64,000 nt of DNA from Teretinema zuelzerae (GTDB taxonomy: Bacteria; Spirochaetota; Spirochaetia; Treponematales; Treponemataceae), in assembly GCF_021021555.1 (NCBI RefSeq), contig NZ_JAINWA010000001.1, positions 744,001-808,000 of the forward strand. Reading direction: 5' to 3'. The notes under the pieces were generated by a model. It was not told the origin of the DNA, did no database searches, and was given only the letters and a program-made list of their open reading frames with translations. A program made the position numbers and the translations under genes. Below, piece after piece: positions 2,911-57,870 of the stretch; within the stretch, counting starts at the first letter, position 1; the number at the start of each line of letters is the position of its first letter.

Positions 2911-5205
2911 ATGAAGATTCGCTTAGCGCCGATACTTGCGCACCCATGGCTCGCAGCGGCAATAGTGATGGGACTCACCATTGCTTCCATAATTCCGATC
3001 AAAACCGGATTCCGAATGGAAACAAATCTCGACAGCTACATGCCGGAAAACCATCCGGCGTTCAGCTTTAGCGACGAGGCAGAAGAGCGTTTTCAAATAA
3101 AAGACGGCATATTGATAGCGCTGGAGCATCCAGTATCCATTTTCAATACCGGATCTCTCAAAAAGATGGTCGATATCGAATCGGAATTGCGCTCTATCCC
3201 TGAACTCCGGGACACGCGCATACAGTCGCTTCATACCGGCGACAATATTCTGGGAACGGAAGAAGGGCTGGACGTCAGACCATTTTTCACGGATCCCCCT
3301 GAAACGGAAGAAGAAGCGTTCAGGATCGGCGAACTTGCTTACTCGAATCCGATGATCCGGGGGCGGTTGATATCGGAGGACGGTCGAAGCGCGCTCATTG
3401 TCGTCGAGTTACCCGACAGCGGTTTCTCGAAGGAGCTCTACCAACAGGTAACCGATCTGGCCGCCGCTTACGAAGGCCCGGAAAATGTCTATGTGGCGGG
3501 ACGTCCAATCGTAGAAGGAACATTGGCGGAGCTTGGACCAAAAGACATGGCCCGCATGGGTCCGCTGGTACTGATCGCAATAGCCCTCGTCCTCCTGCTT
3601 ATTTTGAGGAAATTCTCCCGGGTACTGACGACCCTTTTCATTGTAGTCGCCAGCACGCTCTGGTCCTTCGCGCTGATGAGCCTGCTCGGGATTCCGTTAT
3701 ACTCGGTCAGCATCATGCTGCCGGTAATGCTTGTTGCGATCGGAGTCGCCTACGCGATTCATCTGTATGGACAGGTTGATCAGCACCGCAAGGACCATCC
3801 TGAGGAACAAGCGGCGCAGGCTATCGAGCAGGCTGCCCTGGTGATCGGTCCGCCGTCCCTCTACGCCGCGCTCACCACGGTCGCCGGTTTCATCGCCCTG
3901 CTCACATCAAGCGTGTATCCGGTAAAATACTTCGGCCTCTTTACCGCGTTCGGCGTCGCGGTCTCATGGCTGCTTACAATGACCCTTGCCCCGGCAATGC
4001 TCATGATTACGGAAAGAAAAACAAAACCACGGACAGCCGCTGATGCAATGAACGAACCGGAAAGGCTCGGCAAAACAGAGCGCTTCGGAGAGCGCTTCGC
4101 CGACGGCGTCAGCCGCAACCGGTTTGCTGTATACGCCGCTACGGCAGTAGTGATCGCGCTTTCCCTGGTCGGCGTTTCACGGGTGTGGATCAACTCGAGC
4201 TTCCTTTCCAACTTCGAAAAGGACAGCGCCATCGTAAAAACGGACGCCTTCGTTAACCGGTATTTCGGCGGAACGTCTACGGTTAACATTATCCTCGACA
4301 GCAATGAATACGACGCCTTCAAGAATCCCGACGTGCTGCGCTTGATAGACTCCATGCAGGAAAGCGTGGAATCCCGCGCGATGGTCGGGGATTCGTTCTC
4401 TCTGGCTACCTACCTCAAGCAAATGAATTACGCGATGAACGCCGAAAGAGAGGAGTTCCGCACCATACCGGATTCCGCAGAACTGACGGCCCAGTACCTT
4501 CTGCTGTATGAAATGTCGGGCGACCCGGACAACCTGTGGAAGGTGGTGGATCCCGACTTCATGAACGCGAACGTAACGGTTCAGCTTAAAAGCGACGACA
4601 GCAGAACGATCGGCGAGGCGCTGGAGGCTGTCGAACCCTTCCGTGCTCAGTTCGGCGAATACGGAATCGCGGTTAATTTCGCGGGGTCCGGCTACAAGGC
4701 CCTGGTTTTCTCGGACCTGATTCTCTCAGGCCAGCTCAGCAGCCTTCTGCTTTCCGTTGCGATCGTATTTCTTCTGACGACCGTCCTTTTCCGCAGCATC
4801 GTGCTGGGCGCGATTTCCACTATTCCGGTACTTATCTCCATGGCAGTGAATTTCGGGATCATGGGGTTGCTGAACGTGCCGCTGACCACGTCCACCGCGC
4901 TGATATCGAGCATCGCGGTAGGAATCGGGGTCGACTACGCGATTCACTTTATATCCCACTACCGCCAGAGATTGCGGGATACAGGAGACGAAACCGACGC
5001 GGCTCGTTACTCGATGAGCCTCACGGGAAAGGCCGTTCTGCTGAACGCGGTAACCGTAATCTCCGGGTTCATGGTCATGGTATTTTCTGTTTTCCCGCCG
5101 AACCGTCAGGTAGGCTTGTTGGTCTCGCTCAATATGCTGGTCGCTTTTATCTCGACCGTTACTATCATGTTCCTCGTACTGAGGAAGTCGTCACGCAGTT
5201 TGTAA
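2911..5205 (+). CDS. RND superfamily exporter, MMPL/hydrophobe type
   Basis: The ATG at 2911 is preceded by AAAGGAGATTCAC and gives about 764 residues. The architecture is that of MMPL-like exporters: an N-terminal membrane helix, a large extracytoplasmic loop, five clustered helices (about residues 205-370), then the whole unit repeated. Typical signatures include VAIGVAYAIHLYGQ in the first half and IAVGIGVDYAIHFISHYRQ in the second. Such proteins move lipids or hydrophobic molecules by proton motive force and work as a single polypeptide without AcrA. The LolA-like protein and the beta-barrel encoded immediately downstream would complete a route through the periplasm to the outer membrane. 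The substrate is unknown. Confidence 0.9.
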   Translation: MKIRLAPILAHPWLAAAIVMGLTIASIIPIKTGFRMETNLDSYMPENHPAFSFSDEAEERFQIKDGILIALEHPVSIFNTGSLKKMVDIESELRSIPELRDTRIQSLHTGDNILGTEEGLDVRPFFTDPPETEEEAFRIGELAYSNPMIRGRLISEDGRSALIVVELPDSGFSKELYQQVTDLAAAYEGPENVYVAGRPIVEGTLAELGPKDMARMGPLVLIAIALVLLLILRKFSRVLTTLFIVVASTLWSFALMSLLGIPLYSVSIMLPVMLVAIGVAYAIHLYGQVDQHRKDHPEEQAAQAIEQAALVIGPPSLYAALTTVAGFIALLTSSVYPVKYFGLFTAFGVAVSWLLTMTLAPAMLMITERKTKPRTAADAMNEPERLGKTERFGERFADGVSRNRFAVYAATAVVIALSLVGVSRVWINSSFLSNFEKDSAIVKTDAFVNRYFGGTSTVNIILDSNEYDAFKNPDVLRLIDSMQESVESRAMVGDSFSLATYLKQMNYAMNAEREEFRTIPDSAELTAQYLLLYEMSGDPDNLWKVVDPDFMNANVTVQLKSDDSRTIGEALEAVEPFRAQFGEYGIAVNFAGSGYKALVFSDLILSGQLSSLLLSVAIVFLLTTVLFRSIVLGAISTIPVLISMAVNFGIMGLLNVPLTTSTALISSIAVGIGVDYAIHFISHYRQRLRDTGDETDAARYSMSLTGKAVLLNAVTVISGFMVMVFSVFPPNRQVGLLVSLNMLVAFISTVTIMFLVLRKSSRSL

Positions 5206-45481: not shown

Positions 45482-45817
45482 TCAGTGATCGCAGGCGTTC
45501 GCTCCGGTAATCAGCATGCCGGAAAGGAACTGGTTCACGATCTCGTCGGAGGCTCCCGGCTGGGCTCCGGTTATGACGACGATGCCGCGTTCGGTGAACA
45601 GGTCGCGCGCCCGATTTCCCATGCCGCCTGCGATAATGTGGGTGATGCCCTTTTCTCCCAGAAAGCGGGGCAAAAGACCCGGCTCATGGGGAGGGGCTTC
45701 AATATAGCTTTTCCCCGACGCTTTCTTGTCCGCGGAAACTTCGAACACATCGAAACCGGCGCAATGGCCGAAATGAAGATTTAATCGGCCCTCGGCCACT
45801 GGTACAGCTATTCTCAT
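45482..45817 (-). CDS. NifX/ORP-fold protein (MTH1175-like)
   Basis: The 111-residue protein of the dinitrogenase Fe-Mo cofactor-binding superfamily starts MRIAVPVAEGRLNLHFGHCAGFDVFEV. It ends EIVNQFLSGMLITGANACDH, which is typical of the MTH1175/ORP group. These bind metal clusters and work with Mrp-type ATPases rather than nitrogenase here. The start overlaps the mrp stop by 4 bases, showing a tight pair. The operon has a sigma54 promoter at 47.07 kb. Confidence 0.88.
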   Translation of the reverse strand: MRIAVPVAEGRLNLHFGHCAGFDVFEVSADKKASGKSYIEAPPHEPGLLPRFLGEKGITHIIAGGMGNRARDLFTERGIVVITGAQPGASDEIVNQFLSGMLITGANACDH

Positions 45818-46593
45818 ACAAGACTCCTTGTTATTGTTTCATAGACAGCGCTCACCGGCGAGTCCTTGAATTGAGTTACATAGGGAATTCCCGAGTCCCC
45901 GGCTTCTCCGACCGCGGGATCGAGGGGGAGAGCGCCCAGGAAGGGAACTCCGTATTTTTCCGCAAGGCGCTTTCCGCCGCCTTCCTTGAATATGTAGGTA
46001 ATTTTCTTGCACTCGGGGCAGACGAATCCCGACATATTCTCGATGATTCCCGTTACCGGGAGATTCAACTGCTTACAGAAGTTGATGGACTTGCTGACGT
46101 CGACGGAGGCCACATTCTGCGGAGTCGTTACGATGATCGCGCCGTCCGAATTCCCGATGAGCTGGATGACCGAAAGGGGCTCGTCTCCGGTCCCGGGAGG
46201 ACAGTCCACCACGAGGCAGTCGAGCTCTCCCCAGTCTACGTCTTCCAGAAACTGGCGGATTACTCCGTTTTTCATCGGACCCCGCCAGATCACCGGAGCG
46301 TCTTCTGCCTGCAGCATAAAGCCGATGGACATCACCTTGAGATTCGGAATCGAAGGAATCTCCACCGGGAAAATCCGCTCTCCGTCCCCGACTAACCGCT
46401 CATCGCCGAGGCCCAGCATCGTCGGAACGCTCGGTCCGTGAATATCCACGTCCAGAAGTCCCACCTTCTTACCCTGAAGGGCGAGACTCGCCGCAAAGTT
46501 CACCGCGACGGTGCTTTTTCCCACACCGCCCTTTCCTGACATCACGATGTATTTTTTCGCCACGTGATCCATTTTTACCGTTTCAATTGCCAT
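45814..46593 (-). CDS. mrp: Mrp/NBP35-type Fe-S carrier P-loop ATPase
   Basis: This 259-residue ParA/MinD-superfamily ATPase has the deviant Walker A VMSGKGGVGKSTVAVNFA and the switch regions GLLDVDIHGPS and LVVDCPPGTGDEPLS. The cluster-ligating Cys pair is in SGFVCPECKK. It binds and transfers Fe-S clusters. The ribosome site is GGGGAGATAGA. It lies between two NifX-fold genes in the ORP-like cluster, the arrangement known from the Desulfovibrio ORP system. Confidence 0.93.
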   Translation of the reverse strand: MAIETVKMDHVAKKYIVMSGKGGVGKSTVAVNFAASLALQGKKVGLLDVDIHGPSVPTMLGLGDERLVGDGERIFPVEIPSIPNLKVMSIGFMLQAEDAPVIWRGPMKNGVIRQFLEDVDWGELDCLVVDCPPGTGDEPLSVIQLIGNSDGAIIVTTPQNVASVDVSKSINFCKQLNLPVTGIIENMSGFVCPECKKITYIFKEGGGKRLAEKYGVPFLGALPLDPAVGEAGDSGIPYVTQFKDSPVSAVYETITRSLV

Positions 46594-46661
46594 TCTATCT
46601 CCCCAGCCGAATAATCGGCCTTATGTAATCGTGCACAATAAGCAGTAATAACTGCCTTCGC

Positions 46662-47063
46662 TCACTGCGTGCCCCGCAACGCCGGACCAAGACGGTTACC
46701 CTGGCCGCGCCTCCTGCACCGTCTGCGGGGGCAGCCGCATCCGGGCATCGAGAACAGCTCCTGTTCCAAAGTGCCGGCCTTCAGCGCTTCCAGAATCCTG
46801 GCCACCGGCCCCGCCGCGAAGGAAAGCGCTTCTATTCCCTGATCGAGGAGAGCGTCCTCGTATTCGCGCGACAAAGCGCCGCACACCAGATGGGTCACCC
46901 CCCGGCCCGAAAGAAACCGAGCCCGATCATCGGCGTCGAACGAGGGAAAGAGGTCGGGTTCGGGAAGAGGTCCTTCCAATCCGCCTGAAAAAATGAGACA
47001 CCGTTCGGAAACATCGAACACCGGGGCGATTCGCCCGTTCCACACTGATAACGCCAGGGTCAT
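46662..47063 (-). CDS. NifX/ORP-fold protein with Cys/Arg-rich tail
   Basis: The 133-residue product from ATG 47063 starts MTLALSVWNGRIAPVFDVSERCLIF, the standard NifX-fold beginning. It ends MPGCGCPRRRCRRRGQG, the Cys/Arg tail typical of a subset of ORP-cluster proteins. The upstream sigma54 promoter (47074-47089) predicts transcription beginning at the first base of the ATG, consistent with the lack of a Shine-Dalgarno. It is the first gene of an operon that continues to mrp. Confidence 0.82.
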   Translation of the reverse strand: MTLALSVWNGRIAPVFDVSERCLIFSGGLEGPLPEPDLFPSFDADDRARFLSGRGVTHLVCGALSREYEDALLDQGIEALSFAAGPVARILEALKAGTLEQELFSMPGCGCPRRRCRRRGQGNRLGPALRGTQ

Positions 47064-47073
47064 ACTCTGATAT

Positions 47074-47089
47074 AGCAAATACCGTGCCA
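47074..47089 (-). promoter_or_regulatory. Sigma54 (-24/-12) promoter of the NifX-Mrp operon
   Basis: The minus strand reads TGGCACGGTATTTGCT, which meets every conserved position of TGGCACG-N4-TTGCW. The predicted start of transcription is 47063, the A of the start codon. A TTGCA-N4-TGCAA-like site is centred 83.5 bases upstream. Confidence 0.85.
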
Positions 47090-47139
47090 TGCGTGCGGCA
47101 TGGAACAGGAAGAGAAAACCATCTCTATAAGAGGAAGGA

Positions 47140-47153
47140 TTGCACGACTGGAA
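47140..47153. promoter_or_regulatory. Predicted activator site (UAS) for the NifX-Mrp sigma54 promoter
   Basis: TTGCACGACTGGAA matches TTGCA-N4-TGCAA in 9 of 10 positions. It is centred at -83.5 from the predicted start. The same distance is seen at the other sigma54 promoter (51333-51346). Confidence 0.6.
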
Positions 47154-47193
47154 GGAAATTGATTGCAATAACGCACGATCAATGAACTCTTTA

Positions 47194-47207
47194 TTGCATC
47201 TCTGCAA
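47194..47207. promoter_or_regulatory. Perfect TTGCA-N4-TGCAA operator between divergent genes
   Basis: TTGCATCTCTGCAA is a perfect copy of the palindrome found beside the sigma54 activator gene. It lies between the divergent NifX-Mrp operon and the C_GCAxxG_C_C gene and could serve both. Confidence 0.7.
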
Positions 47208-47216
47208 TTAACGCTC

Positions 47217-47232
47217 AGGACGCTGTATTGCA
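47217..47232 (+). promoter_or_regulatory. Probable weaker sigma54 promoter of the C_GCAxxG_C_C gene
   Basis: AGGACGCTGTATTGCA keeps the invariant GG-N10-GC spacing and TTGCA, but departs from consensus between. The predicted start is about 47243, 33 bases before ATG 47276. Confidence 0.45.
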
Positions 47233-47275
47233 GAACGGGCGCCGGCTGTTATAAGGTACGAAAAAGGACACACAT

Positions 47276-47734
47276 ATGAACCACGGAGAAAAAGCGGTAG
47301 ATTTCTTTTGCAGGGGCTTTAACTGCGCCCAGTCGACGGCTGCGGCATTCGCCGAAGAGGCCGGAATGGATGAAAAAACAATCTGCACGATGATGGCGGG
47401 TTTCGGCGGAGGAGTCGGAGGATCGCGCGAAATGTGCGGCGCGGCGACCGGCATGGTATGGGCGCTGGGATTGTTTTTCGGAGACTACGATCCTCACGAC
47501 ACGGAAGCTAAAACGCGGCTCTATCGGACGGTCCGCGAAGGAATCCACGAGTTCACTGAACTGTTCGGAACAACCTGCTGCAGGGAGCTGCTCGCGAAGG
47601 CCGGATGCCTGCCCAAGCCCGATCCGTCGGTGCGGAACGCAGAATACTATTCAAAACGTCCCTGCGCGCACTTTGTACAGGCCGCCGCGGAAATCGCCGA
47701 CAGGTTGAAAAGAGAGCAGATCACGGCCGGTTGA
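47276..47734 (+). CDS. C_GCAxxG_C_C family redox protein
   Basis: The 152-residue protein has the family signature spread over [11 protein letters not shown], then [25 protein letters not shown] and [12 protein letters not shown]. All the named Cys positions are present. These proteins, frequent in anaerobes, are thought to bind a redox cofactor or Fe-S cluster. It is divergent from the NifX-Mrp operon and shares its operator region. Its last 14 bases overlap the 3' end of the sigma54 activator gene on the other strand. Confidence 0.9.
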
Positions 47735-49070
47735 TGCCGTACTTTTTCATTTTTCGCCAGAGGGTTGCCTTGTCGATGTCGAGGGCCTGGGCGGTACGGG
47801 CGCGGTTCCATCCGAAGTTGTCCAGGGCCGCGAGAATGCAGTCCCGTTCGGCTTCATCGCGGACCCGCAGGACTCCTGCTCCCGCCTCGCCTGAAAGGGC
47901 GTCCTTCGCGCAGACGACCGGAGACTGAAGCTCCGGCGGAAGCAGATCCTTGTCGATCTCCGGCGCCTTGGCGAGAACGACCATCCGCTCGACCACGTTC
48001 TCGAGTTCGCGGATGTTGCCCGGCCACGAATACGCGTAAAAGCGCGAGAAGACCTCGGGTGAAAACCCGTCTATCGTACGGTTCATCCTGACCGCGAACG
48101 TATTCAGAAAACCCGCGGCGAGATCCGGAATGTCCTCTCTCCTCTCCCTCAGCGGGGGAAGAACGAGGCTGATCACGTTTATCCGGTAATATAAGTCGCG
48201 GCGGAAGCTTCCATCGTTCGCCATGTTCGCAAGATCGCGGTTCGTAGCCGTTACGAGCCGAACGTCCGTGCGAACCGGTTTGGTTCCGCCCAGGGGCTCG
48301 TACTCGCGCTCCTGCAAAACGCGCAGGAGCTTCACCTGCAACGAGGCGGGAATATCGCCGATTTCATCGAGAAACAGAGTGCCTCCTTCGGCCAGAGCGA
48401 AGCGGCCGGGTTTATCCCGGTCGGCTCCGGTGAAGGCTCCCTTGCGGAAGCCGAATAATTCGGATTCAAGAAGGCTTTCGGGAATGGCGCTGCAGTTCAC
48501 CGCCACGAAGGGGCCGTCCCTGCGGGGGCTGAGCGAATGAAGAGTCCGGGCCAAGACTTCCTTTCCGGTTCCCGTCTCTCCCTGAATCAGCACTGACGCG
48601 GTCGACTCGGCGACGGCGGGAAGCATTCCGAGAAGCGGTTCCATCGAAGGGCTTTTGCTCCGGAACAGGGGATTCGGACCGCGGCTCGCCAGCTCCTTGC
48701 GGAGATCCTCGAGCTCGCTCAAATCGCGGAAGGTTTCCGCCCCTCCGATCACCGCCCCGGAGGCGTCGGTCAGCAGGGCGGTCGAAACGCTGATGGGGAC
48801 CCGCTTTCCTTTTTTGGTGACGCAGTATCCCGTACGGTCGATGAGCGGCTTGCCCGTCTTCATGGTCCGCTTAAGCGGGCAGGCCGATTCGCACATATTC
48901 GAACGGAATACTTCAAAGCAGTATCGGCCGACCGCCTGGCCGCGGGGCACGCCGGTGATCCGCTCGGCGGCCCGGTTGAAAGAGCTGATCTTCCACTCTT
49001 CGTCCACCGTGAACACGCCGTCGGATATGCTTTCCAGAATCCGGGCTGTAAAAGCTTCGTCTGCAATCAT
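47721..49070 (-). CDS. Sigma54-dependent transcriptional activator (PAS-AAA+-Fis)
   Basis: ATG 49070 gives about 449 residues. An N-terminal PAS domain ([20 protein letters not shown]) contains a [16 protein letters not shown] segment with a CxxxC pair, which suits redox or metal sensing. The AAA+ domain has Walker [14 protein letters not shown], the sigma54-contact loop [10 protein letters not shown], Walker [14 protein letters not shown], and an arginine-finger region. The C-terminus is a Fis-type HTH ([27 protein letters not shown]). It lies inside the ORP-like cluster. Two TTGCA-N4-TGCAA motifs cover its promoter, so autoregulation is likely. In Desulfovibrio an equivalent regulator controls the ORP operons. 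Confidence 0.93.
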
Positions 49071-49072
49071 AA

Positions 49073-49106
49073 TTGCAATATTACAACGTCTATTGCAATT
49101 CTGCAA
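49073..49106. promoter_or_regulatory. Tandem operators over the activator gene promoter
   Basis: TTGCAATATTACAA (49073-49086, 9/10) and TTGCAATTCTGCAA (49093-49106, perfect) are 20 bases apart, about two helical turns. The minus-strand extended -10 TGT-AATATT (49077-49085) lies inside the first site and would start transcription at ATG 49070, which has no ribosome site. Binding here should repress the activator's own gene. Confidence 0.65.
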
Positions 49107-49992
49107 CCAACACGTCCCACAACGAGGCCGCCGCCTGCGAGGCCGGACACGAGGGATTGTATTCGATGATGCTTTTTCCCGCGATCTGTGCGCGCGTAAC
49201 AGACGGATCCCAGGGCATCGTACCGAGGAAGGGAACCGAGTTCCGGCCGCACCACGAGCGTATTTCGTCGCTTTGAGCGGGGTTGATGTCCGCCTTGTTC
49301 ACCGCGACGAAAAATCTGACGCCCAGATGCTTCGCGAGAGACGCGACCCGCTCAAGATCGTGGAGGCCCGATACAGTCGGCTCGGTTACGACGAGGGCCG
49401 CGTCGGCTCCCGTGATCGAAGCGATTACCGGACAGCCTGTTCCCGGAGATCCGTCGACGATGATCCAGTCTGCGTTTTTCTCTCCGGCGATCCGCTTCGC
49501 ATCCTTGCGCACCGAGGTGACGAGCTTGCCCGAATTCTCGGCGCGTATGTCGAGTGCGGCATGGACGAGCACGCCGAAGCGGGTGTTCGACACATACTGT
49601 TCGCCGCATCTGCGGTCCGGAAAATCGATCGCGTGAGCGGGGCAAAAGCGCACGCAGACGCCGCAGCCTTCGCAGGAGCCTTCCTCGACTACGCAGCCGG
49701 CGGCTGCTGAAAGCGAAATGGCGTCGAATCGGCAAAGCGCGGCGCAATCGGCGCATCCGCCGTCCTGGCCGGTCGAAATGCACTTGAGCGGATCGATCCG
49801 CGCTACATGGCCGCTGATGAACTCGCGCTTTTCCTGCACCTCGGGATTAAAGAGAAGATGCAAATCCGCCGCATCCACATCGCAGTCCGCAAACACGGCA
49901 GACCCGGATCGGGACGCGAGAGACGCGATTGCGGCGGTCATGCTCGTTTTTCCGGTGCCGCCCTTGCCGCTGATGATTATCAATTCTTTCAT
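49090..49992 (-). CDS. MinD-type ATPase with inserted ferredoxin domain (ORP complex type), second copy
   Basis: The product of about 300 residues has the P-loop [18 protein letters not shown]. Two 4Fe-4S motifs are inserted at about residues 60-120 (the first Cys-rich with CADCAALC, then [12 protein letters not shown]). The switch region is [18 protein letters not shown]. This MinD/ferredoxin fusion is characteristic of Orp ATPases and MinD-like Fe-S proteins of strict anaerobes. It overlaps the sister gene upstream by 4 bases, and the regulator gene begins 20 bases downstream. Confidence 0.9.
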
Positions 49993-50882
49993 TGTACTCC
50001 TCCGGATGCCGGCCGCGCACTGGTTTTCATGCGCACAGCCAAAGCGGAAAACACGCTCCGGTATTCGGGCGCCGACTCGACCAGGGGTTGCCCGCGCGAA
50101 TAGCCTTCCGCGATGCGGCGGTCTTCCGGGATTTGAAGCAGCAAATCGATGCCTTCCCGTCCGCAATACCGCACGACGCGGTCGTCGCCTGAATCGCTCC
50201 GGTTCACGATTACGCCGAAGGGAATGCCCATTTTGCGCACCGTCTTCACCGCGAGATCCAGATCGTGAAGGCCGAAGGGAGTCGGTTCGGTCACCAGTAC
50301 TACATAGTCGGCGCCGGTTACCGCGGTTCCCATCGGACAAGAAGTTCCCGGCGGCGAATCGATGATTTCAAAAACATCCACAGCGCCGGCTTCCTGTTCG
50401 GCGGCCGAACGGTCTTTTACCGCGCGGATGACCGGAGGGGACATCGCGTTTCCAATGGACAGAAGGCCCTGAATGATCCGGAGGGAACTTTCCCCTGCGC
50501 GCGAAACGGAGGCGCAGGCAAGCGTTCCGATTGCGACCGGTTCTTCGCGGATCGCGTCGACCGGGCATACGAGGGCGCAGCCGCCGCAGGAATGGCACAA
50601 CTCCGGGAACACCATCACGGTCGTGCCGATGTGGACGATCGCGTTGAATTCGCAAAACCGAGCGCACTCGCCGCAGGAAGTACACGCGCTTTCATCGATT
50701 ACCGGCACGGGAACCGTAACCGCGGATTCCTCGATTCCGTTCAGTTTCAGAAAAAGGGCGGCGTTCGGCTCTTCGACATCGCAGTCGAGAAGGGCCGCAC
50801 GGCCCGGAGCGGAGAGGGCAAGAGAGACGGCGACGGTTGTCTTTCCCGTCCCGCCCTTGCCCGAAGCGACAGCTATTCTCAT
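49989..50882 (-). CDS. MinD-type ATPase with inserted ferredoxin domain (ORP complex type), first copy
   Basis: The 297-residue product from ATG 50882 has the P-loop [18 protein letters not shown], then two 4Fe-4S motifs (CTSCGECARFCEF and CHSCGGCALVCP) between the P-loop and the nucleotide switch IIDSPPGTSCPMGTAV. It is a paralogue of the next gene, and the two probably form a heterodimer. It overlaps the NifX-like gene upstream (ATGA). The three genes are driven by the sigma54 promoter at 51266-51281. Confidence 0.9.
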   Translation of the reverse strand: MRIAVASGKGGTGKTTVAVSLALSAPGRAALLDCDVEEPNAALFLKLNGIEESAVTVPVPVIDESACTSCGECARFCEFNAIVHIGTTVMVFPELCHSCGGCALVCPVDAIREEPVAIGTLACASVSRAGESSLRIIQGLLSIGNAMSPPVIRAVKDRSAAEQEAGAVDVFEIIDSPPGTSCPMGTAVTGADYVVLVTEPTPFGLHDLDLAVKTVRKMGIPFGVIVNRSDSGDDRVVRYCGREGIDLLLQIPEDRRIAEGYSRGQPLVESAPEYRSVFSALAVRMKTSARPASGGVQ

Positions 50883-51241
50883 ACCCAGTGGCCCTCGACG
50901 TCGGCGTCGCTGATCTGCTTGAGCTCGCCCTTCTTCCATGCCTGATAAACGTCGGCCACCGTTCCTCCGGGGGCAAGATAGACGGGAACTCCCGCGGCCG
51001 AAAGCACCTTGAAAGCCTTCGGTCCGGTATGTCCCGAGACGCAAGCCCGGGCTCCGGCGTTCACAACGTGCTGAGCCGCCTGGATTCCGGCGCCCTGGGC
51101 CGCTTCCAGGTTCTGGGTATTGTCCAGGGCGGTGAACGAATCGTCCTCCGTGTCGAACACGATAAAAGCGGCGGCGCGGCCGAACCGAGAATCCATTTGA
51201 GAATCAGGAATTTTTCCCGAAGAGGTAATAGCGATTTTCAT
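50879..51241 (-). CDS. NifX/ORP-fold protein, first gene of the ATPase operon
   Basis: The 120-residue product from ATG 51241 follows TTGGAGGCTTTT. It starts MKIAITSSGKIPDSQMDSRFGRAAAFIVFD and shows GARACVSGHTGPKAFKVL, a standard NifX/ORP fold that can bind a metal cluster. It is the third such protein in the cluster. The predicted sigma54 start (51255) gives a 14-base leader. Confidence 0.88.
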   Translation of the reverse strand: MKIAITSSGKIPDSQMDSRFGRAAAFIVFDTEDDSFTALDNTQNLEAAQGAGIQAAQHVVNAGARACVSGHTGPKAFKVLSAAGVPVYLAPGGTVADVYQAWKKGELKQISDADVEGHWV

Positions 51242-51265: not shown

Positions 51266-51281
51266 AGCAAGATTCATGCCA
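51266..51281 (-). promoter_or_regulatory. Sigma54 promoter of the NifX-ATPase operon
   Basis: The minus strand reads TGGCATGAATCTTGCT, matching TGGCAYG-N4-TTGCW at every conserved base. The predicted start is about 51255. A candidate activator site is centred 84.5 bases upstream. Confidence 0.88.
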
Positions 51282-51291
51282 TTCAAAACCC

Positions 51292-51333
51292 GTGACAAAT
51301 ATCACAGACGAAGCGTTCATAATTCGCTAGACT
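51292..51333 (+). promoter_or_regulatory. CRP/FNR-type palindrome and permease promoter
   Basis: GTGACAAATATCAC (51292-51305) has the GTGA-N6-TCAC form of CRP/FNR/HcpR-family sites. A -10-like TAGACT at 51328-51333 would start transcription at about 51340. That centres the palindrome at -41.5, the usual class II activator position. It points to the permease genes. Confidence 0.5.
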
Positions 51334-51346
51334 TGCATCAGTTGAA
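51333..51346. promoter_or_regulatory. Predicted activator site for the NifX-ATPase sigma54 promoter
   Basis: TTGCATCAGTTGAA matches TTGCA-N4-TGCAA in 8 of 10 positions and is centred at -84.5 from the predicted sigma54 start. The distance equals that at 47140-47153 within one base. Confidence 0.5.
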
Positions 51347-51363
51347 GAAGAGAGGGGGACCCG

Positions 51364-51846
51364 ATGGACACTATTTTTCTATACGGCATCGCATTGCTGC
51401 TTTTTATCCTGTCTTTCGCCGCGGACCGGCAGAAGACGAAAAAAGCGTTCAGCAAGGGATTGAAAGCATTGGAGGGAATACTGCCGCAATTCATCGCGGT
51501 AGTCGCGCTGATTGCGATCATGCTCTCCCTTCTCGAACCGCAAACCATTTCACGCTTCATCGGCAGCGACTCCGGTCCCCTCGGCGTAATCCTTGCGGGC
51601 CTCATCGGGTCGATCACCCTGATTCCCGGCTTCGTCGCTTTTCCCCTCGCGGGAGAACTGCTGAAAAATGGTGCGGGAACGCTTCAGATCGCAACCTTTG
51701 TTTCCGCTCTGATGATGGTGGGAGTCATCACGCTGCCGGTGGAAATCTCGTACTTCGGCAAGCGCGCGGCAGTGTTGAGAAACCTGCTCGCCCTCGCGTT
51801 TTCCTTCGCGGCGGCCTTTTTCATCGCATGGGCGGCGGGAATATGA
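51364..51846 (+). CDS. Half-size predicted permease (ArsP/DUF318-like), first of pair
   Basis: The 160-residue protein starts after AGAGGGGGACCCG. It has four to five helices. The recurring permease motif is SRFIGSDSGPLGVILAGLIGS followed by ITLIPGFVAFPLAGELLKNG. It resembles half of the PF03773 permease family. The stop overlaps the start of the second permease (ATGA), so the two probably assemble as one transporter. It is divergent from the sigma54-driven ATPase operon. The substrate is unknown. Confidence 0.75.
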   Translation: MDTIFLYGIALLLFILSFAADRQKTKKAFSKGLKALEGILPQFIAVVALIAIMLSLLEPQTISRFIGSDSGPLGVILAGLIGSITLIPGFVAFPLAGELLKNGAGTLQIATFVSALMMVGVITLPVEISYFGKRAAVLRNLLALAFSFAAAFFIAWAAGI

Positions 51847-52388
51847 AAAAGAAAACGCCTTTGCAGCGATATATCCCGGCCATCGTTTCCCTTGCCGCCC
51901 TGGGAGCGCTCTCCCTGATCATGCCTGAAATCGCGCCCCGGGCGGGCAAAGCCTTCGTCGACCAGCTTACCTCCATCGCCCTCGTGGTCCCGCCGATTTT
52001 CATGCTTCTGGGACTTCTCGACGTATGGGTTCCACGCGATACGATGATCCGATTCATGGGGCCGGACTCAGGAATCCGCGGTCCCGTGCTCGCATTCCTT
52101 CTGGGATCGGCCGCCGCGGGCCCCCTCTACGGAGCCTTTCCGGTTGCCGGCGTGCTCATGAAAAAGGGAGCCTCGTTCCACAACATTCTGATTTTCATCG
52201 GCGCGTGGTCGACGACCAAGGTGCCCATGTTCCTCTTCGAGATGCAGGCCCTCGGCAAGCGTTTCGCCCTGTCCCGCCTGGCGATCGACCTGGTCGGCAT
52301 AACAGTCATCGCCTTCGCAATAGAAATAGCGGTTCCGAAAAAAGAAGTGGAACGCATCTACGCCCTCGCGGCAGAAGAGGAAAACTGA
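51843..52388 (+). CDS. Half-size predicted permease (ArsP/DUF318-like), second of pair
   Basis: The 181-residue protein begins at ATG 51843, overlapping its partner's stop. The motif RFMGPDSGIRGPVLAFLLGSAAAGPLYGAFPVAGVLMKKG mirrors that of the first permease, in inverted topological phase. IFIGAWSTTKVPMFLFE follows. A heteromeric pair with the preceding gene is likely. Nearby redox and metal-cluster genes suggest export or import of a metalloid, sulfur compound or cofactor piece. Confidence 0.75.
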   Translation: MKKKTPLQRYIPAIVSLAALGALSLIMPEIAPRAGKAFVDQLTSIALVVPPIFMLLGLLDVWVPRDTMIRFMGPDSGIRGPVLAFLLGSAAAGPLYGAFPVAGVLMKKGASFHNILIFIGAWSTTKVPMFLFEMQALGKRFALSRLAIDLVGITVIAFAIEIAVPKKEVERIYALAAEEEN

Positions 52389-52484: not shown

Positions 52485-53759
52485 CTACCAGTCCAACAGA
52501 CGGCGCTGGCCCTCCAGCGAACGCAGGGATGTAGCGTCCATGCTCATCTCGAGCGTTCCGAGGTAGGCGCCGGAGTCGTCGTATAGAGGCTTGTAGGAAA
52601 TAAAGATGAAGTGGCCGTTCATCTCGATCCAGAAGTCGGCCGCGTCCTTTTCCTTGTTCCTGAACGCCTCGATGATTTTTTCCACGATATGCACGCTCTT
52701 CGGGGGATGGCAGTTCGCTACGTCCCGGCCGATGATTCCCGGACTCCGCGGAAAAACGCGGTGGGGGGAGTCTGAATAATAGCGAACCTTGTTGTCGGCG
52801 TCGACGAACGAAATATCGCAGGGAAGAACAGTGAGAATCCGGTTGAGCCAGTCGAGCGGGAGGCTTCCGGTGGAAAGCGGAATATCGGTCATTGCGGAGA
52901 CGGCCGGAGATCCCTCGTCAGTTCCCGCCGGAACGTAGACTCCGGGCTCGGGAACGCCGCCGGCCGTACCGCTCCGCGCGCCGCCGTAATCGGGAGCACC
53001 AGAGCGGACCAGTTCGGGAAGGGCCGGATCCCATTCCGAACCCGGGCGCACCCAGGCGAAGCCGATGGCGTCCTCTCCCCTGCGCACCGAAACCCAATCC
53101 GCCTCGCTGAGCCGCTTCAGCGAATTCGGAAACAGAATGCGCTCTTCCATGAAAATCATCATCCTGATTTTTTTTACCAGCGAGCGGGCGATCCGTCCGG
53201 CCGAGCGGCTGTCCATGCGCTCGACGGCGTCGTCGAGTTCGCGGAAGGCCGCGCGGATCTCGTCGTGTTTGCCCCACATAACCTTCGACGGACCGGTAAA
53301 ACCGGTGCGTTCCAGAAACGGAAACAGCTGATTCTCCTTCCGCTCGTAATGAACGATGACGGCGCGCAAATCCTCCGCTGCTTCGCGGATGCGCTCCGCG
53401 TTTCTAAAAGACCATAGGAAAAGCCGCGTCGACCTTCGCCGCGCCTCCCTGTTTTCCGCCATGTAGGTATGCACGGGATGGCCGCTCATGCGCTCTGCTT
53501 TGACGCCCTTCTCGAGCCCGGCGCGGAACACTTCGGCGTGCACCTCGCAGAGCCGCTGAACCTCCTCCACCGGCATGCCGTTTTCTATCAGCGATTGCTC
53601 CAGGGCTGCCACCTCGACCGCGTCCGAACCCTTGATGAGCGCGTGAAATTCTTTCTTTACCGACGAGGCGCTTTCGCCCGCGGCAAGCCTGTCGATGATT
53701 TGATGGAGGCGCTCGGCCCGTTCGGGATCCTGCCCTTTTTCGCCAAAAAATTCGCTCAT
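52485..53759 (-). CDS. DUF438-hemerythrin-PAS sensor protein
   Basis: The product of about 424 residues from ATG 53759 follows AAAAGGAGAAGCCGA. A DUF438 domain occupies about 15-85 (LHQIIDRLAAGESASSVKKEFHAL). A hemerythrin-like domain follows at about 95-240, with di-iron ligands in HPVHTY, VHYERKENQLFPFLE, GKHDEIR and FMEERILFP. A C-terminal PAS domain has the characteristic IIGRDVANCHPPKSVHIV. It probably senses or scavenges oxygen or nitric oxide. Its place beside the ORP-like cluster and a CRP/FNR-type site fits a redox-stress role. Confidence 0.88.
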   Translation of the reverse strand: MSEFFGEKGQDPERAERLHQIIDRLAAGESASSVKKEFHALIKGSDAVEVAALEQSLIENGMPVEEVQRLCEVHAEVFRAGLEKGVKAERMSGHPVHTYMAENREARRRSTRLFLWSFRNAERIREAAEDLRAVIVHYERKENQLFPFLERTGFTGPSKVMWGKHDEIRAAFRELDDAVERMDSRSAGRIARSLVKKIRMMIFMEERILFPNSLKRLSEADWVSVRRGEDAIGFAWVRPGSEWDPALPELVRSGAPDYGGARSGTAGGVPEPGVYVPAGTDEGSPAVSAMTDIPLSTGSLPLDWLNRILTVLPCDISFVDADNKVRYYSDSPHRVFPRSPGIIGRDVANCHPPKSVHIVEKIIEAFRNKEKDAADFWIEMNGHFIFISYKPLYDDSGAYLGTLEMSMDATSLRSLEGQRRLLDW

Positions 53760-53815
53760 TCGGCTTCTCCTTTTTTTTCGCGGAATCTCTTTGAAAGAAG
53801 TATAAACGGTTTTCC

Positions 53816-53848
53816 TTGACAATGCCGGAAAACATTGCAAAACTGCAT
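53816..53848 (+). promoter_or_regulatory. Promoter-like elements with a TTGCA-N4-TGCAT motif
   Basis: TTGACA (53816-53821) lies 17 bases before AAAACT (53839-53844), whose seventh following base is the A of ATG 53851. TTGCAAAACTGCAT (53835-53848) matches the sigma54 regulon palindrome in 9 of 10 positions. No ribosome site precedes the ATG. The -10 is weak. Confidence 0.4.
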
Positions 53849-53850
53849 CA

Positions 53851-54279
53851 ATGACTGAAAAGACGAACGACGACTGCCCGGGCGACCGCTTCTACACCGA
53901 ACGGCGCCTCTGGATTAAAAAGATGCAAAGCGGCGCGGCCGCGGCATACGAAGCGGGACTCGCTCCGCAGGCCTTCGCGGCATTCGGAGCGCCCCTCTAT
54001 CTTGAAACTCCCGGCGCGGGAAAAACGGTTCCCGAAAACCGAACGCTCATCCTCTTCGAGTCCGCCAAAACCGTCGCGGAAATCCCAGCCCCCTTCGAGC
54101 TCACAATAACCGACATACACGAAGCCCTCGTCGACGAACCCAAAAACGCCGCCGGGGATCCCTGGAACTCCTGGCTCTTCCGCTTCACCGCAGACGAGAA
54201 TGCCGTGGAAAACGCCCGTAAAAACGGCGCCCTTCTCGACGCGGAAACCTTCGCCCGCGCCATAAGGAATCGCGCATGA
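53851..54279 (+). CDS. GcvH-like lipoyl carrier protein
   Basis: The 142-residue protein has the H-protein fold: RFYTERRLWIKKMQSG, FGAPLYLETPGAGKTVPEN, then ILFESAKTVAEIPAPF, where the Lys takes the place of the lipoylated Lys of ESVKAVSDLYSPV. DEPKNAAGDPWNSWLFRF closes the fold. It diverges well away from housekeeping GcvH and is followed, with 4-base overlaps, by lipoate ligase and dihydrolipoamide dehydrogenase. No GcvP or GcvT gene is in the window. It is likely a lipoyl carrier for another redox process. Confidence 0.8.
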   Translation: MTEKTNDDCPGDRFYTERRLWIKKMQSGAAAAYEAGLAPQAFAAFGAPLYLETPGAGKTVPENRTLILFESAKTVAEIPAPFELTITDIHEALVDEPKNAAGDPWNSWLFRFTADENAVENARKNGALLDAETFARAIRNRA

Positions 54280-55079
54280 CCGGCTTCTTCGAATGCCGCG
54301 GCATCGATCTGCCGTGGAACAACTTCGCGCGAGAAAGCCTCTACATGGACCGGGTCCGCCTGGGCGAAACCATCCTCTCGGTGTGGAGAAATCCTCCCGC
54401 CGTCGTCGTCGGCAGAAACCAGGAAGCCCGAACGGAATGCCGGATCGCCGAACTCGAAGCCGCAGGCGGAATTCTCGCGCGCAGGATGAGCGGCGGCGGC
54501 GCGGTCTACCACGACGAAGGCACCCTCAATTTTTCATTCGTCACCCGCGGTTCGGGAGAGGACTCAAAAACGCACATCGACATAGTTCGGGAAAGTTTGA
54601 AATCGGTCGGGATCGAATGCCGAACCGCTGGACGGAACGATTTAGTCGCCGCCGCTGGCGCGGAAGAACGTAAAATAGCCGGCACCGCTTACCATTCCCG
54701 GAACGGCTCGTTCCTGTTCCACGGTTGCGTTCTGGTCTCCACCGACATGGAAAAGCTCGAACGATACCTCAGCCCCTCGGAGGCGAAGCTCCGGAAAAAC
54801 GCGATCGCCTCCGTCCGCAGCCGCGTCGCGAATCTGACTGACCTTAATCCGGAGATCGGAGTCGACGCGCTCTCCCGCGCGCTCGAAGCGGCCTTCGCCT
54901 CTTTCTGCGCAAGGTCCGGCGGAACAGTCTCCCCGATCGACCCGCTCGGCGAGAAACTCGTACGTGCGGAAGCCGAGCGTTTTTCCGATCCCGAGTGGCG
55001 ATACGGAAGCGGAATTCTCAGCATAGAAGAGAAAGACGGCCGCATCGTCCGCTCGCGGCTCTACACGGACGCCCTATGA
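54276..55079 (+). CDS. lplA: Lipoate-protein ligase A
   Basis: The 267-residue protein shows the LplA/BPL catalytic fold: NFARESLYMDR, VVVGRNQEARTECR, ARRMSGGGAVYHDEGTLNFSFV, and the lysine motif ERKIAGTAYHSRNGSFLFHGCVLV. It attaches lipoate through lipoyl-AMP. ATG 54276 overlaps the stop of the GcvH-like gene, and its end overlaps the dehydrogenase start. This strongly implies that it lipoylates the neighbouring carrier. Confidence 0.93.
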   Translation: MTGFFECRGIDLPWNNFARESLYMDRVRLGETILSVWRNPPAVVVGRNQEARTECRIAELEAAGGILARRMSGGGAVYHDEGTLNFSFVTRGSGEDSKTHIDIVRESLKSVGIECRTAGRNDLVAAAGAEERKIAGTAYHSRNGSFLFHGCVLVSTDMEKLERYLSPSEAKLRKNAIASVRSRVANLTDLNPEIGVDALSRALEAAFASFCARSGGTVSPIDPLGEKLVRAEAERFSDPEWRYGSGILSIEEKDGRIVRSRLYTDAL

Positions 55080-56632
55080 AAAACCTGGTTGCGGATCTGG
55101 CGATCATCGGCTCGGGGCCCGCGGGCTTCGAAGCGGCTCTGAGCGCGGCGGCGGAAGGCCTCTCTGTAGCGGTGATCGAAAAAGGCCGCTGGGGCGGCGT
55201 CTGCCTCAACTGGGGCTGCGTCCCCTTCAAGGCCTTTCTGGACATCGCCCATCGTACGGCCGAATCCCCCGCTCGCCGGGCCATGCCGCCCGGCGAAGAA
55301 GTCCCCGCGCAACTTCCAGCGCAGCCGGAAATGCCGGCGCAAACAGCTCAACCAGTGCAAACAGCTCAACCAGTGCAAACAGCTCAACCGGCGCAAACAG
55401 CTCAACCGGCGCAAACAGCGCAAACAGCTCAACCGGCGCGTTCAGGCGGCGAAAACATCGCCGAGGAAATCAGGAGGCGGTGCGCCGAACTCGTAGCCGC
55501 GGGCCGGGCCGACATTCTCGCCGCCTTCGAAAGAAGCGGCATACTCGCGATCCAGGGACGTGCCTCGATCGCCGGAGCGGGTCTATTGGAAATCGACTAT
55601 GCGGACGGCAGCCGCGCCGAATTGAAGGCGAAGGCCGTCCTCATCGCCGCGGGGAGGGGAATTCCGGAAGCGTCGCCCGGACTTCTCAGAGCGGAACAGT
55701 TTCCGCTCTCCCTCGCCGCTATCCCGGAATCCGCGACCATCCTGGGAGGAGGAGCGACCGGCCTTGAATGCGCGGACGCGCTCGCCTCGCTGGGCGCGCG
55801 AGTCGTCGTCATGGAAAAAGAAGAACGCATTTTGCCGGGCGCCGATGCCTTTCTGTCGCGACGGCTTAAAAAAAGCCTCGAGAAAAAGGGCATCGTCTTT
55901 CTCGCCGGACGCGCTGCGCCGCTCGAGCCTCTTCCCCAAACCGACATCACGCTCGACGCCCGCGGCTCGGCGCCAAACTACCGAAGCCTTTTCGCGGAAA
56001 GCTCATGGACGCGCGGAAACATCCCTCCCGGCGCAAGGGACGGCGAGGAATCCCTGTTCGACAGCGACGGACGCTTCGCGGTTGACGGTTCGGGCAGGAC
56101 GGCGGTACGAGGCCTCTACGCCGCGGGCGATTGCACGGCCGGCCCCTGTCTCGCGACCCGCGCCTCGGCACAGGGCCGCGCCGTCGGTAAAACGATCGCG
56201 CGCGATCTGGCGGAAGGCCGGGCGAGCGGAACCGGGGCGCAGAAAAGCCGATTCCCCTTCTGCGTCTATACAAAGCCCCAGGCCGCGTGGACAGGAACGA
56301 CCGAACAGGACGCAGAGGCAGCCGGTATTACTATAATAGAAGGAAGATCGTGGGCAGCGGGAAACGCCGTGGCGCGCATCGGAGGAAGCCAAGACGGATT
56401 CGTTCGTCTTTTTTTCAGGGCGGGCGAACATAATCAGGCGGGAAAACTCCTCGGCGCGCAGATTCTCTGCGACGGAGCCGCCGAACTCGTCGCCCTCGCC
56501 GAGGCGGCGATAACGTCGGAACTAGGAGCGGAAGAGCTTTCTCGGCTGAACGCGCCTCATCCGTCCTATGCGGAACTCATCCCCGCGGCCGCGCGGAACG
56601 CCCTCGAGGCCGCAAGGCGCCCGGTTCTATAA
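55076..56632 (+). CDS. lpdA: Dihydrolipoamide dehydrogenase with a repeat insertion
   Basis: The product of about 518 residues from ATG 55076 has the FAD motif DLAIIGSGPAGFEAALSAAAEG and the redox disulfide GGVCLNWGCVPFKAF. The NAD motif is TILGGGATGLECADALASLGARVVVMEKEE, with the FAD-binding GLYAAGDCTAGP. The C-terminal catalytic His-Glu pair is APHPSYAEL. An insertion at about residues 70-125, rich in Gln-Thr-Ala-Pro repeats, separates the disulfide helix from IAEEIRRRCAEL; typical enzymes lack it. It would reoxidise the lipoyl group of the carrier encoded two genes upstream. Confidence 0.9.
   Translation: MKNLVADLAIIGSGPAGFEAALSAAAEGLSVAVIEKGRWGGVCLNWGCVPFKAFLDIAHRTAESPARRAMPPGEEVPAQLPAQPEMPAQTAQPVQTAQPVQTAQPAQTAQPAQTAQTAQPARSGGENIAEEIRRRCAELVAAGRADILAAFERSGILAIQGRASIAGAGLLEIDYADGSRAELKAKAVLIAAGRGIPEASPGLLRAEQFPLSLAAIPESATILGGGATGLECADALASLGARVVVMEKEERILPGADAFLSRRLKKSLEKKGIVFLAGRAAPLEPLPQTDITLDARGSAPNYRSLFAESSWTRGNIPPGARDGEESLFDSDGRFAVDGSGRTAVRGLYAAGDCTAGPCLATRASAQGRAVGKTIARDLAEGRASGTGAQKSRFPFCVYTKPQAAWTGTTEQDAEAAGITIIEGRSWAAGNAVARIGGSQDGFVRLFFRAGEHNQAGKLLGAQILCDGAAELVALAEAAITSELGAEELSRLNAPHPSYAELIPAAARNALEAARRPVL
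55340..55438 (+). repeat. Tandem 18-bp repeat inside the dihydrolipoamide dehydrogenase gene
   Basis: Five full copies of CAAACAGCTCAACC(A/G)(G)(T/C)G plus one half copy encode the hexapeptide Gln-Thr-Ala-Gln-Pro-Val/Ala. The first two copies are identical, as are the next two. The length is a multiple of three, so gain or loss of a unit keeps the frame and changes a flexible linker. Confidence 0.95.
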
Positions 56633-56643
56633 GCCGACTGTTT

Positions 56644-57870
56644 CTATAACGCGATCGATCCGGACAGGTACATGATCGCGCCCAGTGCGAGAAAGAGAAC
56701 TCCCATGACTGCCTTCGACGCCGCGAGATTCCGGGAAAAAAACGAACGGATGGAATCCTGGCTGATTCCGCCAAGAACCATGACAAGGATGGCGGACAGC
56801 GGCAGGATGAAGGCGGCGTTGTAGAGAAGAAGCCAGAGAATCGGTGCAGAGCCGGTTCCGGATGCCTGGACCATGTACGCGAGGGCGGGAAAGTACACCT
56901 GGCCGGTGCAGGCCAGCTCCAGCACGGAAACGACCGCTCCCGTACAGAAAAACGAAATCGCCAGGACGGGAAGGCCTCCGGATGTGCGCGTTCCGCGAAT
57001 GCGCTTGTGCGTCAGTTTTTTCAGAAAATCAGGCAGCTGCAACGCCATTCCTTCGGGGTTTCCCTTCCGCGCCCGAACGGCGTCCCGGAACGATAAAACG
57101 GCAAAAAGCAGGGCCAGAGCCGGAAAGAACCAGCGGAAGAACGCGCGCAGGCCGCGGCTGAAGGAAGCCGCGCGGAGAACGCCGGAAAGGCCGTAGCCCG
57201 TAGCCGTGTACGCGGCGAAAACTCCCGCGATAAAGGCGAGGCCCATGCCCAGGACGCGCGTACGCGATCCGCCTTTCAGGCTAATCCACGAAAGAAAAAA
57301 GAGCATGGTCGCGAAGGCGCACGGATTTATTCCGTCCACAAGCCCCGCCGCCGCGACCGGCCAAAAGGAAAGCACGAAGGGACTCCCCGCCTGAGCCCCG
57401 TCCGAGGTGCCGATGCCTGATTTTTCAGAGGCGGATCGATCGGTTTTGGACGAAGCGAGCTTGGCGCGCCACGAACCGTGTTCAGCGAAATGCAGCAGTT
57501 CGGGAATCAGGTTTTCTTCGATCGCAGCGTTGCCCTGATACACGTTGTTCCCCGCGATCAGCACCGGAAAAACGGAAAAAGACTCGCCTCTCAGGGAGAG
57601 CTCCCGTTCGCACCGGCTGAAGCCCTCTGCGGAAAGAATATCGAAATACGCCGCTTCGACCTTCAAGCCGCTTGCGCGCTCGGCGGCGGGCAAGTCCTTT
57701 TCAGCGAAGAGGTCGCAATGGGCGCAGCCGATTTCTCCGTAATACTCGATCCGGACCGGAGGCTCAGCGTCCAGTGCGAACGCGCCGGCAGGCAGAGAGA
57801 AGGTTGCGATAAGAGCGATAAAGCGCGCGAAACGGAAAAAAGTACGCATAGGGGGCATGATACCACGCAT
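56644..57870 (-). CDS. Thioredoxin-like/CcdA (DsbD-type) fusion membrane protein
   Basis: The product of about 408 residues has a signal/anchor (FIALIATFSLPAGAFAL). A periplasmic thioredoxin-like domain follows with the redox pair GEIGCAHCDLF. A charged linker leads to a CcdA-like domain of about seven helices (GINPCAFATMLFFLSWISL, SFFCTGAVVSVLELACTGQVYFPAL) containing the membrane Cys residues. It would carry reducing power across the membrane to periplasmic thiols. Start choice among ATG 57870, 57858 and 57849 is uncertain; AAGG before 57870 favours it. Confidence 0.82.
   Translation of the reverse strand: MRGIMPPMRTFFRFARFIALIATFSLPAGAFALDAEPPVRIEYYGEIGCAHCDLFAEKDLPAAERASGLKVEAAYFDILSAEGFSRCERELSLRGESFSVFPVLIAGNNVYQGNAAIEENLIPELLHFAEHGSWRAKLASSKTDRSASEKSGIGTSDGAQAGSPFVLSFWPVAAAGLVDGINPCAFATMLFFLSWISLKGGSRTRVLGMGLAFIAGVFAAYTATGYGLSGVLRAASFSRGLRAFFRWFFPALALLFAVLSFRDAVRARKGNPEGMALQLPDFLKKLTHKRIRGTRTSGGLPVLAISFFCTGAVVSVLELACTGQVYFPALAYMVQASGTGSAPILWLLLYNAAFILPLSAILVMVLGGISQDSIRSFFSRNLAASKAVMGVLFLALGAIMYLSGSIAL

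Follow-up and report, generated by a model that had tools for sequence, protein, structure and literature searches.

ArsP proteins (ArsP_1, PF03773; TC 2.A.119) are organoarsenical and metal permeases. In the excerpts of the literature available to us, the full-length family is described as consisting of two repeats (PMC7176098), and a C(S/T)C motif is reported for all ArsP proteins surveyed (PMC4435449); in canonical ArsP, a single chain holds both repeats and the motif lies in the membrane. Two other described systems bear on the locus analysed here. Among CRP/FNR proteins, the residues of the recognition helix are reported to correlate with the DNA site (PMC1274295), and a rule given for HcpR1 associates R-E-R at helix positions 1, 2 and 6 with TGTGA-N6-TCACA (PMC5701242). 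Furthermore, the orange protein (ORP) operons of Desulfovibrio vulgaris are reported to comprise NifX-like proteins, two MinD/ferredoxin ATPases, Mrp and a sigma-54 activator with sigma-54 promoters (PMC6345978, PMC3897727).

We analysed a 64,000-nucleotide stretch of Teretinema zuelzerae DNA (hereafter the window) in which two small genes, A and B, encode half-size permeases of the same Pfam family as ArsP and are divergent from an operon with parts like those of the ORP operons (Table 1). The best explanation of this locus, to which we give a probability of about 0.6, is a two-subunit, Cys-less stress exporter of the ArsP_1 superfamily that is activated here by a CRP/FNR-family protein from a class II site, the ORP-like operon being a mere neighbour. 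A literature search at title and abstract level found no paper on half-size ArsP pairs.

Table 1. Features at and around the half-permease pair (positions refer to the window)
Feature	Position	Strand	Remarks
Enhancer-binding protein of the ORP-like cluster	47721..49106	-	PAS, sigma-54 activator and Fis-type HTH domains
ORP-like MinD2	49090..49995	-	MinD-type ATPase with 4Fe-4S ferredoxin domains
ORP-like MinD1	49989..50882	-	MinD-type ATPase with 4Fe-4S ferredoxin domains
NifX1, NifX-like (Nitro_FeMo-Co) protein	50879..51241	-	Opens the divergent ORP-like stretch; Pfam match
Sigma-54-type promoter match TGGCATGAATCTTGCT	51266..51281	-	Before the divergent NifX1 operon; one mismatch
Palindrome GTGACAAATATCAC, candidate CRP/HcpR1-type operator	51292..51305	.	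GTGA-N6-TCAC
Predicted -10 hexamer TAGACT	51328..51333	+	22 nt past the palindrome; implies a start at ~51340 and a site at -41.5
Half-permease A	51364..51846	+	160 aa; N-half-like subunit, ArsP_1 superfamily; no cysteine
Half-permease B	51843..52388	+	181 aa; C-half-like subunit; no cysteine; ATGA overlap with A
DUF438-hemerythrin-PAS protein	52485..53840	-	Convergent with B
TTGCA-N4-TGCAA palindromes	47140-47153, 47194-47207, 49073-49086, 49093-49106, 53835-53848		Clustered at the gene of the sigma-54 activator and ahead of both the NifX2 promoter and the DUF438 gene

Window B matches ArsP_1 above the curated Pfam cut-off (E = 3.2e-10, 40.1 bits against 32.3), which places it in the superfamily; the match of window A lies below the cut-off (E = 3.2e-4, 20.4 bits), and the A protein of another pair reaches 49.5 bits. 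Profile-profile comparison shows homology between A and B across 158 columns (E = 8e-13), nearly their whole length. The motifs SRFIGSDSG of A and RFMGPDSG of B, which a first-pass annotation of this DNA had described as mirrored motifs of two overlapping short permease genes, are therefore part of a shared repeat, and the two reading frames themselves are present as described. An assignment of A and B to the Gate/nucleoside-recognition permeases (PF07670) was rejected, none of the four PF07670 matches in the genome being at the pair. The 3.62-Mb host genome also encodes one full-length ArsP, about 350 kb from the pair.

Scanning public genomes with B gave 309 relatives, the best 80 of which were kept, so that the pairing figures cover the closest ones. 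In all 80 of these loci, A lies directly 5' of B on the same strand and the two are separate chains of ~160 and ~180 aa, with no fused A-B form among them; the gap is at most 120 nt in 79 loci and ~163 nt in the 80th (L094), and 50 of the 80 scored junctions show the 4-nt overlap. More distant relatives come from a phylum search, which detected B in 40 of 392 genomes and from which 40 loci were added; in the wider set, A is found within 300 nt of B in 120/120 loci. The pair is present in spirochaetes, clostridia and Desulfobulbaceae, and within the sampled relatives A and B are an obligate two-gene unit. Alignments were made from 73/80 and 72/79 complete relatives plus the window, near-duplicates and short or tailed forms being omitted; elsewhere in the analysis, one A gene situated too close to the end of its contig was passed over.

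For comparison, alignments were built of two groups of full-length ArsP whose genes lie close to pairs. With hhalign, A aligns with the N-half in both groups, at a probability of only 28% for one of them, and for B the counterpart is the C-half in one group (E = 3e-7), while its weak match in the other (E = 3.1e-4) falls on the N-half. All 162 half-proteins lack the C(S/T)C motif, whereas it occurs in 39/39 of the full-length ArsP encoded near pairs, which served as positive control; its place is taken by IPGFVAFPxA in most A proteins and by GPLYGAFPVA in most B proteins. Judged from sequence, the pair is thus a Cys-less, two-chain variant of the ArsP superfamily and not a canonical ArsP. Because the membrane Cys-(Ser/Thr)-Cys site is missing, binding of a substrate by paired thiols is improbable, and loss of the site implies a substrate that differs from that of ArsP.

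The genomic surroundings of the pairs could nevertheless be read as those of an exporter of arsenicals or thiophilic metalloids that works like ArsP and is merely split. When the 120 loci were merged into 115 distinct pairs, genes found within 5 kb included those for ArsR (45 pairs), full-length ArsP (38), thioredoxin_3 (35), ACR3 (25), DGC (23) and DsbD-type proteins (17). At least one of ArsR, ArsP, thioredoxin_3, ACR3 and DGC accompanies 56/115 pairs and at least two accompany 43, with none in the remaining 59, and the density of these neighbours, ~4-8 per 100 kb in the first 1.5 kb, is down to 0.16-0.32 at a distance of 5-10 kb. Membership in the ArsP superfamily points the same way. Against a conserved ArsP mechanism, however, stands the complete lack of the Cys motif in the half-proteins; moreover, a motif-bearing full-length ArsP often lies beside the pair, which is hence no simple substitute for it, and the 64-kb window contains no ars-type neighbours. 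We consider this reading somewhat unlikely. In the window, the region beyond the pair (53851-57870) encodes GcvH-like, lipoate ligase, dihydrolipoamide-dehydrogenase-like and DsbD-like proteins, and homologs of all four occur near the pair in another locus (L035). The DUF438 gene convergent with B also has counterparts within 5 kb of 4/115 other pairs.

The proposal of the first-pass annotation that the two permeases form a two-part transporter with inverted-repeat symmetry gains from the constant adjacency of the separate genes, from the predicted structures and from the distribution of charges. The AlphaFold2 single-chain models are confident (pLDDT 89.3 for A and 92.9 for B) and have a common order of helices: a first helix, a long second one, a short one, a series of short and broken ones and finally another long one. 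A sequence search of solved structures found no relative of B, Foldseek with both models gave no match at E<=0.001, and VIA-align with B reached a best Z of 5.4, with no solved relative among the families compared. The mean number of Lys and Arg residues is 0.03 in A versus 3.61 in B at the N-terminus, 7.11 versus 2.31 in the first loop and 1.00 versus 3.26 in the second loop. This pattern fits opposite membrane orientations and suggests that A has its N-terminus outside and B inside; the two subunits would probably assemble in the membrane as a heterodimer of oppositely oriented chains.

A CRP/FNR-type site at -41.5 had also been proposed ahead of A. Within the window, the exact pattern GTGA-N6-TCAC occurs three times versus 0.45 expected, whereas the relaxed pattern TGTGA-N6-TCACA with two mismatches is at chance level (11 observed versus 10.3 expected). 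Over the whole genome, TGTGA-N6-TCACA with at most one mismatch occurs 27 times versus 13 for a reversed-pattern control, an excess of only twofold, so that most copies are uninformative. The comparison of upstream regions is more telling. Once regions shorter than 150 nt were omitted, 113/116 regions upstream of A could be used, that of the window included; the exact palindrome is present in six of them, versus 0.29 expected from simple base shuffles, and absent in 107. Five of the six (the window, L091, L116, L229 and L233) lie at -68 to -73 before A and represent four lineages, L091 and L116 belonging to a single one; the three lineages besides that of the window are likewise spirochaetal. 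All five have a hexamer with A at position 2 and T at position 6 (TAGACT, TATCTT, TATCTT, CATAAT and TATGTT) 22 nt past the palindrome, the only offset common to them among 0 to 39. This is the offset expected of a class II site at -41.5, and the spacing recurs in all four lineages. The recurrent position and spacing lend comparative support to the operator and to its predicted distance from the start; on the other hand, no promoter turned up in a scan for the sigma-70 consensus, TAGACT is a weak hexamer, and the start itself is a prediction.

Elsewhere in the genome, a very similar candidate operator, CGTGACATCTGTCACA (L140, G000:C1:327547-327562), precedes a hemerythrin gene, and TATTCT follows it at 22 nt, as the hexamer does in the pair operator. 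This operator is a lead only, because of the 22 genome sites inspected out of 27, 19 have no A2/T6 hexamer at 22-nt spacing on either strand.

CRP/FNR genes are also among the recurrent neighbours of the pairs: across the 120 loci, ten lie within 1.5 kb, four at 1.5-5 kb and one at 5-10 kb, a count that leaves out one overlapping-frame match (L112). In L229 and L233, the CRP/FNR gene lies directly 3' of B and has the recognition helix CSREALSR; in L215, L220, L224 and L210, a convergent CRP/FNR gene (LARETLSR) has TGTGATTTSAATCACA, of the TGTGA-N6-TCACA type, at its own start. In all six loci, a regulator with an R-E-x3-R recognition helix therefore adjoins the pair. No CRP/FNR gene adjoins the pair in the host genome, which encodes two unlinked CRP-type proteins with R-E helices, L129 (AREVVSR) and L130 (TRETVNK, with K at the last position). 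We propose that a CRP/FNR-family, HcpR1-like protein of the host probably exerts class II activation from the palindrome before A.

In the available text of PMC1274295, genes of anaerobes under HcpR or other CRP/FNR control are described and half-permeases are not among them; the pairs likewise lie beside or under CRP/FNR regulators. Five loci encode a B protein with a C-terminal Fe-S tail, recognized as PF04060 (L048, L229), as Fer4_13 (second pair of L109) or by a cysteine motif only (L227, L233), and all five have a CRP/FNR gene nearby; window B has no such tail. The B protein of L109 combines ArsP_1 with Fer4_13, its CRP/FNR gene being divergent and ~0.5 kb upstream, and we infer that CTC0897-0898, predicted to be under HcpR control (PMC1274295), are a pair whose B has this build. 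A Prismane (hybrid-cluster) fragment is encoded upstream of the pair in L229. A different palindrome, TTGCA-N2-TGCAA, occurs between CRP/FNR and ferredoxin genes (L131, ~2147-2158) and ~60 nt before hcp (L152, ~3125-3136), which suggests a separate HcpR-like regulon.

The palindrome before A might instead have arisen by chance, or it might be bound by Rex or by the enhancer-binding protein of the ORP-like cluster. The chance-level frequency of the relaxed pattern in the window speaks for such a reading, as does the presence, immediately ahead of a Rex-like gene of the same genome (L137, G000:C1:1246188-1246269), of two perfect TGTGA-N6-TCACA sites, which probably serve Rex autoregulation. However, the position of the palindrome and its spacing to the -10 hexamer recur in three other lineages, two of which have a CRP/FNR gene in the operon, and the inner CAAATA of the window site is unlike the core of the two sites before the Rex-like gene, which is AA...TT. 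The enhancer-binding protein, for its part, has a better candidate in TTGCA-N4-TGCAA, which is found at its own start and ahead of the ORP operons of relatives, and the pair palindrome was rejected as its site. Taken together, we judge it unlikely that the palindrome is anything other than a CRP/FNR operator of the pair.

Another possibility is that the pair transports a metal or sulfide species that NifX-like carriers deliver or receive, independently of the ORP ATPases. Nine of the 115 pairs have a NifX-like gene at most 1.5 kb away, in the arrangements DUF134-NifX-A-B, A-B-NifX and ArsR-NifX-A-B, and such genes have a density of 2.76 per 100 kb at this distance versus 0.64 at 5-10 kb, as counted with a NifX model built partly from the same pair loci. 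However, such a gene is missing from the vicinity of ~90% of pairs, and the nine cases include several close relatives, so that fewer of them are independent. We find a role of this kind improbable.

The first-pass annotation had further suggested that the transporter feeds or drains the metal-cluster pathway of the ORP-like ATPases next to it. The pair is indeed divergent from NifX1-MinD1-MinD2, with a gap of 122 nt, the lone NifX-like genes in their several arrangements near other pairs could be taken in its favour, and two genomes of the same genus have the pair and an ORP cluster on one contig, albeit ~26 kb (G034) and ~66 kb (G044) apart. MinD1 matches are commoner in genomes with the pair (26/40 versus 46/352 without; odds ratio 12.4), but the anaerobe control gene hcp co-occurs with it as well (28/40 versus 94/352; odds ratio 6.4), and both ratios ignore kinship, so that shared ancestry and anaerobic life are not separated in them. 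At the level of the locus, on the other hand, the association fails: the ORP ATPases MinD1 and MinD2 (at least 100 bits) are found within 10 kb of 0/115 pairs and Mrp within 5 kb of two, and the pair is beside none of the 13 ORP loci of relatives, a set that includes several short contig ends. A conserved ORP-permease cluster was thus rejected. The outcome is the one that the first-pass annotation had named as refuting its proposal, namely permeases that co-occur in relatives with other genes but not with ORP clusters, as far as the locus is concerned. Likewise, the ORP proteins that PMC6345978 and PMC3897727 name for D. vulgaris, in the portions available to us, do not include the pair.

In the 13 relatives' loci, NifX2, NifX1, MinD1, MinD2, Mrp and NifX3 are mostly together, with a sigma-54-type promoter in 9/13 and TTGCA-N4-TGCAA palindromes in 6/13. 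Unlike these, the window has the activator, a C_GCAxxG gene and NifX2-Mrp-NifX3 split from NifX1-MinD1-MinD2 (45482-51241). The ORP run is broken up here, and the adjacency of the pair therefore looks like the result of a local rearrangement. Furthermore, the sigma-54-type match before NifX1 and a second, perfect one at 47074-47089 are the two best in the window, and TTGCA-N4-TGCAA (at most one mismatch) occurs six times versus 1.1 expected and is likely the site of the ORP sigma-54 activator. The ORP-like operon would accordingly have a promoter of its own and be controlled separately from the pair. With this evidence, service of the pair to the ORP pathway appears very unlikely.

Returning to the stress exporter that we favour, A and B would be the counterparts of the N-half and the C-half of full-length ArsP and would act, as oppositely oriented subunits that each require the other, in a secondary transporter. 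Its most likely cargo would be a small, toxic species, inorganic or metalloid in nature, or else a product that arises when metal centres are damaged, exported under stress when the HcpR1-like protein activates the pair. In a more specific and quite doubtful version, the two-chain, Cys-less transporter with its opposite-facing subunits might belong to an anaerobic response to nitrosative or metal-centre damage, in which an HcpR-like CRP/FNR switch operates alongside hemerythrin-type proteins, and might export a damaged Fe-S or metal-sulfur product delivered by NifX-like proteins or by the Fe-S tails of B.

The pair is a natural case of two transporter repeats that exist as separate proteins, probably in opposite orientations, and as such it bears on the origin of inverted-repeat transporters. 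Furthermore, the candidate CRP/FNR operator opens the role of the pair in the stress response to direct test.
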